From: an uncultured Flavobacteriales bacterium
Lineage (GTDB): Bacteria; Bacteroidota; Bacteroidia; Palsa-965
Reading direction: 5' to 3'
Assembly (NCBI GenBank): GCA_903873905.1
Contig: CAIQQJ010000115.1
Location: 1-64,000 of the forward strand
DNA: 64,000 bases
This document shows, in pieces, positions 23,640 through 28,962 of the stretch (positions are counted from its first letter, which is position 1; each line of letters begins with the position of its first letter). The position numbers and the translations under genes were made by a program. The notes below the pieces were generated by a model. That model ran no database searches, had not been told where the DNA came from, and saw nothing but the letters and a program-made list of their open reading frames with translations.

Positions 23640-24503
23640 ATGAAAACGAACAAGTTTGTACTGGTTGCAATTTTAGCTTTCCTAGCGTTTGACACTGTCA
23701 AAGCTCAGGTCCTGGATCCGGTTTTTCCTGACCAAGTTTTTCTTCGCGAAAATACACGAACAAGAAAACCAATTCCTTACACTTATCTGCGTGAGGCGGA
23801 TGTAATGTGGTCGAAACGAGTTTGGCGTACTCTTGATCTTCGCGAGAAGTTCAATCATCCATTGTATTACCCAGAATCTCGAATCAATGATCGTCGTAGT
23901 CTTTTTGATGTAATAAAAGATGCACTTTTAGCTGGAGAAATTACTGCGTTTGACAATCCTGTATTTGACGATGAGTTCAAAGTCAAAATGTCTAAAGCTG
24001 CAATTGAAGCCACATTTGTTCAGTGGGATTCAACTGCACAAACAGAGGATCCAAATAATCCAGGTGTAATGATTTCTGCACCCGTTAAAACAGACCTTAA
24101 TTCCAATAACGTAAAAGCCTATTGGATGAAGGAAGACTGGTTTTTTGATAAACAACGTTCAGTAATGGATGTGCGTATTCTTGGACTTTGTCCAATGAGA
24201 GAGAAAGCAGATCCTGCAACAGGTGAGATTCTTGGATACTTGCCTTTGTTCTGGGTTTACTTTCCACAATGCCGACCAGTATTTGCAAAGGCTGAAGTTT
24301 ACAACACAAAAAATGATGGAGAGCGTCGTTCACTTGATGATATTTTCTGGAAACGAATGTTTGCAAGTTACATTCACAAAGAATCAAACGTTTACGATCG
24401 CACAGTTCCTGCTTATTTAACCAATCAGTTGGATCAGCTTCTTGAAGCAGAACGAATCAAAAATGACATTTTCGTTTTGGAACATGATTTGTGGCACTTG
24501 TAA
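23640..24503 (+). CDS. gldN: Gliding motility/T9SS protein GldN
   Basis: ENTRTRKPIPYTYLREADVMWSKRVWRTLDLREKFNHPLYYP. Confidence 0.96.
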   Translation: MKTNKFVLVAILAFLAFDTVKAQVLDPVFPDQVFLRENTRTRKPIPYTYLREADVMWSKRVWRTLDLREKFNHPLYYPESRINDRRSLFDVIKDALLAGEITAFDNPVFDDEFKVKMSKAAIEATFVQWDSTAQTEDPNNPGVMISAPVKTDLNSNNVKAYWMKEDWFFDKQRSVMDVRILGLCPMREKADPATGEILGYLPLFWVYFPQCRPVFAKAEVYNTKNDGERRSLDDIFWKRMFASYIHKESNVYDRTVPAYLTNQLDQLLEAERIKNDIFVLEHDLWHL

Positions 24504-24556: not shown

Positions 24557-24693
24557 GCTTTGTCTTTTTTAGTTTTGATTGAATTAAAAGCGCAGGAGAA
24601 ATTATTCTTCACATGTTGGTGACTTTTTAGCTGATGCGTTCTTATGCTTTCAGAAACGACCTAAAAGGGTTTAAACGAAAGAAAGGAACGCCA

Positions 24694-25611
24694 ATGAAAA
24701 CTATCCACCATCAAATCCAAGACCTCCGTGTCGAAAATAAAAAGCACTATGTGTGCACTTTATTTCTAATCAGTTTTATTTTTTCTGTTACGATTCTGGA
24801 TGCACAGCCAGTATTAAATCCGACATCTGAATTCGGTGAAACATTTTATATCAAAGAAAATTCCCGTACACGAAAGCCAACTCCCTACACCCATGAACGC
24901 GAGGGTGATGTTATGTGGTCAAAACGTGTTTGGCGCACTATAGATCTTCGTGAAAAATTCAATCACCCCATCTATTTTCCGGAAACACAAATCAATGATC
25001 GGAAAAGTTTATTCGATGTGATTAAGGGTGGCATACTCAGCGGTGAAATTTATGCTTATGACAATCCATTTTTTGATGATGAGTTCAAAGTGCGAATGAC
25101 CAAAGCTGCTGCTACAACCATGTTCTATTGGACGGACACAACACTTTTTGCAGACGATCCAAATAATCCCGATGGGCCACAAATTGCAGCGCCCGTAAAT
25201 TATGAATTGACTTCGAGAGACGTGAAACAATATTGGGTGAAAGAGGATTGGTTCTTTGACAAAGAACGCTCAGTAATGGATGTACGCATAATTGGCCTTT
25301 GTCCGCTGAAAGAAAAAACAGATCCAACAACAGGAGCAATGATTGGAGTGATGCCCCTTTTCTGGGTTTACTTCCCACAATGCAGAAATCTGTTTGCAAA
25401 ATCTGAAGTTTTCAATACAAAGAATGATGCGCAACGAAATACGTACGATGATCTTTTTCAAAAAAGAATGTTCTCGAGTTTTGTAAGAAAAGAATCAAAC
25501 GTTTATGATCGTGAAATTGCTTCTTATGCAACGGAAATTGACATTCAATTAGAAGCTGAACGTGTAAAGGATGATATTTTCAAAATGGAACATGACATGT
25601 GGCATTTGTAA
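24694..25611 (+). CDS. gldO: GldN paralogue (GldO-like)
   Basis: KENSRTRKPTPYTHEREGDVMWSKRVWRTIDLREKFNHPIYFP; collinear with gldN; start taken at MKTIHHQ. Confidence 0.88.
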   Translation: MKTIHHQIQDLRVENKKHYVCTLFLISFIFSVTILDAQPVLNPTSEFGETFYIKENSRTRKPTPYTHEREGDVMWSKRVWRTIDLREKFNHPIYFPETQINDRKSLFDVIKGGILSGEIYAYDNPFFDDEFKVRMTKAAATTMFYWTDTTLFADDPNNPDGPQIAAPVNYELTSRDVKQYWVKEDWFFDKERSVMDVRIIGLCPLKEKTDPTTGAMIGVMPLFWVYFPQCRNLFAKSEVFNTKNDAQRNTYDDLFQKRMFSSFVRKESNVYDREIASYATEIDIQLEAERVKDDIFKMEHDMWHL

Positions 25612-26349: not shown

Positions 26350-28854
26350 CTAATCAACATTGTCGTGTAAGAAAGAATTGTTCGGACGAATCTCAATTTT
26401 CTTCTCTTCGTTTTCTGTCAATGTGTAACGTGAAACTTGTGATTCAGAAGAATGTGGTACATTTTCAAGACTGACATTTCTACGTTTGTAGGCAGGCTCA
26501 TGCTCCATTTCATTCAAACCTTTAGGCGTTTTTAATTTCAAGCTCAGCGCTTTCAATTTCATAATTCGCTCTTGCGCTTTTTTCTGAAGTTCTTCTGTTT
26601 GAATTCTTTTCTCCAATTCTTCCTGATTTAATTTATCAGCAAGTACAGTTTCTGCAGACACTTCTGCTACAGGCTCTGATTTCTTAATCAGGTAAGGCTC
26701 ATTGTAATTTGTCTCTTCAGCAACAGGTTCGTTTACATAAGTAACTTCTGCAACTGGCTCGCTTACCAAATTGATTTCAGCAACAGGTTCAACAGTCATT
26801 TCAGCAACTGGCTCTGACCAAGTTTCCGCAATCGGTTCGCTGTAAATTTCCTCTTCAGCAATCAACTCCAAGTTGGAATTCTCGTTGAGGTCAGAATTTT
26901 CTGAAGAACTATAATTGGTTATTTCAAATACTACATTCGTATTCAAAACCGGTTCGACAACTTCATCCGTTTCAGTTTCAGAAACTGGCGACACAAACTC
27001 AGCCAATTCTAATAATTCCGCAACTGGATTAAAAGTTTCTTCAGTCAATGTTACTTCTGCAATTGGCGCAAGGATTTCTTCTTCCAATGTTACCTCTGCA
27101 ATTGGTGCAAGGATTTCTTCTTCCAATGTTACCTCTGCAATTGGTGCAAGGATTTCTTCTTCCAAAGTTACCTCTGCAATTGGTGCAAGGATTTCTTCTT
27201 CCAATGTTACCTCTGCAATTGGTGCAAGGATTTCTTCTTCCAATGTTACCTCTGCAATTGGTGCAAGGATTTCTTCTTCCAATGTTACTTCAGCAATTGG
27301 TTCAAGGATTTCTTCTTCCAATGTTACCTCAGCAATTGGTTCAAGGATTTCTTCTTCCAATGTTACTTCAGCAATTGGTGCAGCTACAATTTCAGCAACA
27401 GGTTCTTCCACTTTTGTAATTAAGAATGGTTCAAGTGGATTTGCAATTTCAGCTTCAATAGTTTTTACTTCTGCAATAGGTTCCGGTTGTTTCGAAACAA
27501 GGAAAGGCTCAAGTGGATTTACAGTTTCCGCTTTTGTTTCCTCTTTCACTAATTCCGCAACAGTTTCTGTTTTATTCTCTTCCAATTTCAGAACAACTTT
27601 CTCTTCAGCCTGTTTTTTTGTGTATTCATAAGCGATTGGGTTATTCTGATTAAAACCTGTCGCAATGATTGTCACATTTACGCTATCACCAAGTGAAGGA
27701 TCAACACCGTAACCTTTGATGATTTCAGCAGTTTGTCCAGCCGCTTCTTGAATGTAATCGGTAATTTCTCCCAATTCATCCATGGTAATTTCATTCTCGC
27801 CAGAAATAATATTGAGGAGCACATAACGAGCACCAGTAATATTATTATCATTTAGCAAAGGAGAATTCAAAGCCATTTCCACCGCACGTGTAGAACGATT
27901 TTCACCAGATACTGCGGCAGATCCCATGATTGCAACACCGCTATTGCGCATCACTGTGCAAACGTCAGCGAAGTCAACGTTGATTTGTTGCGTAAGTGAA
28001 ATAACTTCTGCAATTGATTTTGCTGCAATGGCAAGAACATCATCAGCATGAGAAAATGCATCACTGAGTTTTAAATTGCCATACATCTCACGCAGTTTGT
28101 CATTGCAAACAACGAGAAGTGTATCCACATTTTGCTTGAGCTGTTCCAAACCATCTTCCGCTTGTTGACGACGTTTTTTCCCTTCGAACAAAAACGGAAC
28201 CGTTACAATCGCAACAGTTAGAATTCCCATTTCGCGAGCGATGCCTGCTATGATTGGCGCAGCACCTGTACCCGTTCCACCACCCATACCTGCAGTGATG
28301 AAAACCATTTTTGTATTGTTCGCGAGAACGCTTCGAATGTCTTCAATATTTTCTATTGCGGCATTTCTTCCAACTTCAGGAAGCGACCCAGCGCCACGTC
28401 CTTCGGTAAGTGTTGTTCCAAGAACAATTTTATGAGGAACAGGACTCATATCGAGCGCTTGTTTATCGGTGTTGCAAACAATGAAGTCTACACCTTTGAT
28501 GCCTTGGCGATACATGTGATTAACAGCATTGCTGCCACCACCGCCGACACCGATCACTTTAATGATCGAGGAATGTTCCGGAAGGTCGAATTTCATAGCC
28601 ACGTGAGATTGGTTTGTATTGTTAGTGTGTGAAGTGTTTTCTATTGTTGATGCATTCAAATTACCCGCAATTCCCAATGGATCTTTTTCTGAAACTGAAA
28701 ATTGTGAAGTTGCCATTTCCGATTCTTCATTCGTTCCCGAAATAATTTCTATTTTTTCAAGAGGTGTTTCATCAATGAACGATTCCAGATTGGAAGAATC
28801 AGCGTACTGATCTTTTTCATCCTCAAAATCATTAAAAATGCTGTACATGTCCAT
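26350..28854 (-). CDS. ftsZ: Cell division protein FtsZ with N-terminal extension and very long repeat-rich C-terminal linker
   Basis: IKVIGVGGGGSNAVNHM, GGGTGTGAAPIIAGIA; terminal FLHDNVD peptide; about 18 P-[IV]-A-E motifs in the linker. Confidence 0.98.
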   Translation of the reverse strand: MDMYSIFNDFEDEKDQYADSSNLESFIDETPLEKIEIISGTNEESEMATSQFSVSEKDPLGIAGNLNASTIENTSHTNNTNQSHVAMKFDLPEHSSIIKVIGVGGGGSNAVNHMYRQGIKGVDFIVCNTDKQALDMSPVPHKIVLGTTLTEGRGAGSLPEVGRNAAIENIEDIRSVLANNTKMVFITAGMGGGTGTGAAPIIAGIAREMGILTVAIVTVPFLFEGKKRRQQAEDGLEQLKQNVDTLLVVCNDKLREMYGNLKLSDAFSHADDVLAIAAKSIAEVISLTQQINVDFADVCTVMRNSGVAIMGSAAVSGENRSTRAVEMALNSPLLNDNNITGARYVLLNIISGENEITMDELGEITDYIQEAAGQTAEIIKGYGVDPSLGDSVNVTIIATGFNQNNPIAYEYTKKQAEEKVVLKLEENKTETVAELVKEETKAETVNPLEPFLVSKQPEPIAEVKTIEAEIANPLEPFLITKVEEPVAEIVAAPIAEVTLEEEILEPIAEVTLEEEILEPIAEVTLEEEILAPIAEVTLEEEILAPIAEVTLEEEILAPIAEVTLEEEILAPIAEVTLEEEILAPIAEVTLEEEILAPIAEVTLTEETFNPVAELLELAEFVSPVSETETDEVVEPVLNTNVVFEITNYSSSENSDLNENSNLELIAEEEIYSEPIAETWSEPVAEMTVEPVAEINLVSEPVAEVTYVNEPVAEETNYNEPYLIKKSEPVAEVSAETVLADKLNQEELEKRIQTEELQKKAQERIMKLKALSLKLKTPKGLNEMEHEPAYKRRNVSLENVPHSSESQVSRYTLTENEEKKIEIRPNNSFLHDNVD
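27056..27380 (-). repeat. 39-bp coding tandem repeat in ftsZ linker (PIAEVTLEEEIL[A/E]), 8 near-identical units plus one diverged unit
   Basis: Plus-strand unit gcaattggtgcaaggatttcttcttccaatgttacctct repeated with only a few substitutions. Confidence 0.95.
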
Positions 28855-28919
28855 TGTTGTTGTCCGAATAAAAAATCGTTGAAAATTACTTCACATACAA
28901 ATCACATTAACAAAACACG

Positions 28920-28943
28920 AATTGAACTTACTAACGTTCAATT
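28920..28943. promoter_or_regulatory. Inverted repeat in ftsA-ftsZ intergenic region (AATTGAAC-N8-GTTCAATT)
   Basis: Perfect 8-bp arms separated by 8 nt. Confidence 0.5.
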
Positions 28944-28962
28944 GTTAATTTCATGGTCATTT

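Follow-up and report, generated by a model that had tools for sequence, protein, structure and literature searches.

An FtsZ with a tandem-repeat linker and a clade-specific N-terminal tail in an uncultured Flavobacteriales bacterium

The ftsZ Locus and Its Domain Layout

The window analyzed here is a 64,000-nucleotide stretch of DNA from the draft genome (3.93 Mb, 181 contigs) of an uncultured Flavobacteriales bacterium. Directly downstream of ftsA, it carries an open reading frame whose 834-aa product is identified as FtsZ by profile comparison: it matches TIGR00065 with 369.6 bits (E=1.8e-110), above the curated cut-off of 295.2, as well as the Pfam models Tubulin (PF00091) and FtsZ_C (PF12327, 76.2 bits), and its core contains the GTPase signature GGGTGTG. 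ZapA and FtsA are both found in this genome, which holds only one ftsZ. The overall layout is as follows:

26350..28854, minus strand: ftsZ, 834 aa, sole copy (TIGR00065, PF00091, PF12327)
27652..28578, minus strand: FtsZ globular core, residues 93-401 (Pfam and structure prediction, high confidence)
26656..27651, minus strand: disordered C-terminal linker, residues 402-733 (pLDDT under 50)
26353..26382, minus strand: C-terminal conserved peptide NNSFLHDNVD (from sequence; the protein ends FLHDNVD)

The structure model predicts disorder for the N-terminal 92 residues and for the whole linker, repeats included, in support of the disordered linker assumed in an earlier, sequence-only reading of this DNA. 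A linker predicted to be disordered and followed by the conserved peptide is the arrangement expected of an FtsZ. The tail after the core measures 433 aa, including a linker of about 330 aa, and ranks third among 113 Bacteroidia C-regions of at least 140 aa (median 226, maximum 469). The underlying survey comprised roughly 190 FtsZ sequences, all from Bacteroidia and neighbours and partly redundant. Two neighbouring ftsZ genes occur in L061, L063-L068, L070, L078, L080, L082 and L095 (Prolixibacteraceae and similar); at these paired loci, one gene has the usual C-terminal peptide and the other a shorter C-region without it.

Two further observations concern the window itself. A tandem pair of genes for type IX secretion ring subunits, two adjacent gldN (TIGR03523), lies at 23640-24503 and 24634-25611 on the plus strand, and positions 1-154, at the contig start, hold 3.8 copies (96%) of a 40-bp tandem repeat, the likely reason for the assembly break there.

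An Acidic N-Terminal Tail Restricted to One Clade

The sequence-only reading mentioned in passing an acidic/polar extension of about 95 aa before the core. The extension is present, but the stretch preceding the core is 101 aa long, with 86 aa lying beyond the usual Bacteroidia start, and it is a rarer feature than the repeat array described below.

28597..28854, minus strand: clade-specific acidic N-terminal tail, residues 1-86 (only in G000-G007; pLDDT about 30-40)
28828..28854, minus strand: tip peptide MDMYSIFND, conserved (pattern MDxYx[IM]F shared by seven of the eight genomes)
28594..28596, minus strand: internal ATG at the ordinary Bacteroidia start position (MKFDLPE; sequence comparison)

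In nearly all other Bacteroidia FtsZ proteins, the start lies 15-31 aa ahead of the glycine loop and resembles MxFDLPxxxSSIIKV; the longer starts in L120 and L184 stem from an upstream in-frame Met, with the normal start still visible. An extra 38-324 residues precede the ordinary start in the genus of the window genome (G000-G006, the window genome being G000) and in one genome of a sister genus (G007). No such extension is present in G008-G010, which represent the family's third genus, nor in any of about 180 further Bacteroidia FtsZ sequences, the term clade-specific thus applying to Bacteroidia and neighbours as surveyed. In the FtsZ tree, the eight extended genomes group together as a single, moderately supported clade; the concatenated tree is only partly resolved.

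The extension is acidic in all eight genomes and poor in K/R in most of them, and two structure models predict it to be disordered apart from one short helix. Beyond the tip, the remainder of the tail is variable: the sequence between tip and core diverges fast, with 21, 21 and 27 changes at the three codon positions between two sisters. Apart from ftsZ, only three ORFs of this genome, 18-59 aa long, match the start pattern of the tip. Derivation of the tail from linker sequence was considered and rejected, within-protein blastp giving nothing better than E about 0.2. Long N-tails tend to accompany shorter C-regions, a trade-off that is suggestive only, as the rank correlation among seven complete, related sequences is not significant (Spearman -0.52, p 0.23; Pearson -0.78, p 0.04). 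In one extended genome, G001 (L009), the glycine-loop region is abnormal (GVDLGGRRIIKNKN...) between normal flanks, which suggests compensating frame errors in the assembly; the tail itself is open there.

The Extended Start and Its Upstream Element

A conserved block separates ftsA from the extended ATG and contains two elements, present in this order in all eight extended genomes:

28925..28949, minus strand: conserved cis-element ATTAACA-N7-GTTWRTAAGTT, 95 nt before the extended ATG (comparison)
28881..28888, minus strand: TAATTTTC, invariant in the clade and possibly promoter-like (comparison)

In seven genomes, the cis-element precedes the extended ATG by 86-96 nt, with 0-2 mismatches, and in the eighth it is located at -96 with three mismatches. 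Eight loci lacking the N-extension carry it 83-100 nt ahead of the ordinary start. Its spacing is not absolute: the element is found near -130 in some unextended loci (L015, L040, L131), and many families have no match. Since the distance in the extended genomes matches that of unextended loci, the extended ATG stands where the ordinary start would be, and inserted coding sequence is the best reading of the N-tail. The open frames of up to 324 codons at this position agree with such an insertion. Judging from these comparisons, the extended start is probably real and would be the one used in cells. The cis-element is seen upstream of ftsZ in L014, L016, L019, L026, L027, L116, L118 and L140, which belong to several Bacteroidia families; it has the look of an inverted repeat, and its variant in L116 is similar to paired DnaA boxes.

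All eight extended genomes retain a Met at the ancestral start. In seven of them, the 30 nt before this internal ATG are unusually A/C-rich and unstructured, even compared with the rest of the tail and the linker, and in the third genus similar A/C-rich leaders precede the true start. An A at -3 and -6 promotes initiation in Flavobacterium johnsoniae (PMC6847099); before the internal ATG, A is missing at -3 in five and at -6 in all eight genomes, which are not independent of one another. Taken together, these sequence features hint weakly at a two-start model in which tailed and tail-less forms would both be made.

A 39-bp Tandem Array in the Linker

The most regular part of the linker is a tandem array:

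27067..27378, minus strand: eight near-identical 39-bp units coding PIAEVTLEEEIL[A/E] (TRF and sequence)

TRF delimits the array at 27046-27382 (8.6 copies, 96% matches) with a score of 604, the highest among 132 Bacteroidia ftsZ genes. Eight such units had been proposed at 27056-27380; in this assembly the number agrees, and the coordinates were a few bases off. Likewise, the estimate of about 18 P-[I/V]-A-E motifs corresponds to exactly 18 in the linker, plus one PVSE, whereas shuffling of the linker yields an expectation of 0.18. The eight full units differ from each other at few sites, mostly synonymous, so that the protein sequence of the 13-aa unit (PIAEVTLEEEILA, charge -4) is almost constant. 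Recent duplication explains this constancy, but selection on the sequence could do so as well. Opposite-strand ORFs at 26915-27631 and 27048-27419, which overlap the repeat region, are taken as by-products of the repeat.

The array is common to only two species, the window genome and its sister G004, whose FtsZ core is 97% identical to that of the window and whose contig ends within ftsZ. G003 and the remaining relatives do not have it. G004 shares the 39-bp periodicity, its strongest repeat being a 78-bp dimer (2.2 copies, 95%). The eight units of the window genome are closer to one another than to any G004 unit, which indicates that amplification went on after the two species split. In-frame linker arrays of other sequences are present in L131, L016 and L018, and none of the 132 genes has one within the core; tandem growth of the FtsZ linker is thus recurrent in Bacteroidia. 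The near identity of the unit DNA, the distinct dimer in the sister species and the separate arrays in other families all support the recent tandem duplication that had been proposed. No direct report on repeats in FtsZ linkers, or on Bacteroidota FtsZ linkers, was found in a literature search that covered subscription journals in part.

Conserved Motifs Beside the Array

Several short motifs and one longer module accompany the array in the C-region:

27490..27519, minus strand: EPFL-type motif NPLEPFLVSK (sequence)
27412..27441, minus strand: EPFL-type motif NPLEPFLITK (sequence)
26680..26703, minus strand: related motif NEPYLIKK (sequence)
26914..26928, minus strand: FEITN motif, recurrent in Bacteroidia linkers (sequence)
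26428..26655, minus strand: conserved pre-CTP module, residues 734-809 (alignment; helix confidently predicted from residue 734 to 775 or 785)

The first three had been described as a second motif alternating with the repeat units; the motif is real, but it flanks the array. The pattern EP[FYVT][LM] occurs in 41 of 109 Bacteroidia linkers (69 seen against 3.5 expected), and the LEPFL-type form is nearly constant within the family of the window genome. FEITN-type motifs are present in 26 of the 109. Within the pre-CTP module, the segment KAQERIxKLKELSxKxKT...ELExEPAYKRRN belongs to the majority consensus of a 38-sequence alignment. A PAYKRR regular expression matches 82 of 113 C-regions, and visual inspection reveals a PAY- or PAF-like core in most of the listed misses. 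For this module, neither a Pfam model nor a convincing PDB relative was found by sequence.

Comparison with Characterized FtsZ Proteins

The FtsZ proteins of E. coli and B. subtilis share with the window protein a core, a disordered linker and a C-terminal conserved peptide. Their tails, however, measure 68-104 aa (PMC9939409), compared with 433 aa after the core here, where a 39-bp array, a predicted pre-CTP helix and an N-tail are added. A greatly lengthened disordered linker is also found in Alphaproteobacteria (about 240 aa in Agrobacterium and over 170 aa in Caulobacter), in which longer linkers can favour condensates (PMC13170164); the window linker is longer still and differs in its near-identical tandem array and front tail. 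In Anabaena, an N-terminal peptide of 20 to over 80 aa is linked to SepF, residues 2-51 being needed for normal polymers and for the SepF interaction (PMC6175996). The likeness lies in a clade-conserved sequence before the core, although in the window clade only the tip is conserved and the design is a short tip plus an acidic spacer of 38-324 aa. A profile search of the window genome for SepF gave no PF04472 match while controls matched, so that a partner of the Anabaena type was not detected. The N-terminal extension of Odinarchaeota FtsZ1 is likewise functional, as its amphipathic helix binds membrane (PMC12583498), whereas the window tip is acidic and not predicted to be helical.

Interpretation and Alternative Explanations

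The explanation that we hold with slightly better than even confidence is that an otherwise ordinary FtsZ core has had its disordered tethers enlarged at both ends; we infer that the linker serves as an adjustable spacer and the N-terminal tip as a docking or regulatory peptide. Linker function in E. coli and B. subtilis depends on flexibility, charge and length rather than on sequence (PMC9939409), and this dependence, together with four negative charges per unit, favours an acidic entropic spacer. The linker would have grown partly by in-frame tandem duplication of the 13-aa acidic unit and would act as an entropic and electrostatic spacer, with length and charge adjustable in 13-aa steps, setting the distance between FtsZ filaments as well as that between the filaments and the membrane-anchored C-terminal peptide. 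In this view the repeat would matter through length and charge rather than as a specific binding site, and specific contacts would more likely run through the EPFL and FEITN motifs, the pre-CTP helix and the CTP. The earlier suggestion that copy number could tune filament spacing is plausible. Viable linker lengths in E. coli are 43-95 aa, and lengths above 100 aa disturb B. subtilis (PMC9939409); given these limits, a linker of 330 aa may have a role in addition to spacing.

At the other end, the clade-specific acidic tail may present its conserved tip on a flexible leash as a second docking or regulatory peptide. Since FtsA and ZapA are present and SepF was not detected, whatever binds the tip, if anything does, would have to be a protein other than SepF. 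A more elaborate but less probable version can be offered tentatively: FtsZ would be tethered at both ends, with the tip on its variable acidic leash forming a second docking or regulatory site that mirrors the C-terminal linker plus peptide, and two start codons possibly giving tailed and tail-less forms.

Neutral slippage, in which both the array and the rapidly evolving N-tail would have no adaptive role and reflect drift that disordered regions tolerate, would fit the strong length variation among close relatives and the restriction of the array to two species, but we regard it as unlikely because the tip, the EPFL motif and the pre-CTP module are conserved while the spacers vary, and because the N-tail is kept throughout the eight genomes. 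More doubtful is the multivalent docking proposed in the sequence-only reading, with P[IV]AE units as sequence-specific sites for a partner and copy number setting avidity. P[IV]AE is about 20-fold above the shuffled expectation across Bacteroidia linkers (57 seen against 2.5 expected, a total inflated by the window array), and several copies occur in a few scattered, unrelated lineages such as L116, L118, L134 and L016. However, the motif is present in just 19 of 109 linkers, mostly as a single copy, and the linker of the close relative L006 has none. A Bacteroidota-specific P[IV]AE partner is therefore not supported, a phylum-wide docking motif was set aside as the leading view, and P[IV]AE is, from its distribution, a composition-type motif that recurs. 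Should the linker side be where a partner docks, the EPFL motif, which is more conserved, would be a better candidate than P[IV]AE, as would FEITN and the pre-CTP segment. Collapse or expansion during assembly is very improbable as the source of the unit number: the array exceeds typical short-read length in a draft of 181 contigs, and the exact number of eight units, which rests on that draft, could still be wrong, but the units carry distinguishing variants in an intact frame, no stray unit was found on other contigs with up to three mismatches allowed, and the separately assembled G004 has a related array.

Biological Significance

Work on how linker length and charge control FtsZ rings has relied mainly on engineered linkers in a small number of species. 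The window genus provides a natural series in which cores 84-97% identical to that of the window are combined with C-regions ranging from 212 to 433 aa and, sister genus included, with N-extensions of 38-324 aa, allowing both evolutionary and laboratory tests of tail function. The predicted pre-CTP helix, found across Bacteroidia, and the EPFL motif offer concrete candidates for contacts. Furthermore, the clade indicates that a single-copy, presumably essential FtsZ can acquire a disordered N-terminal tail.
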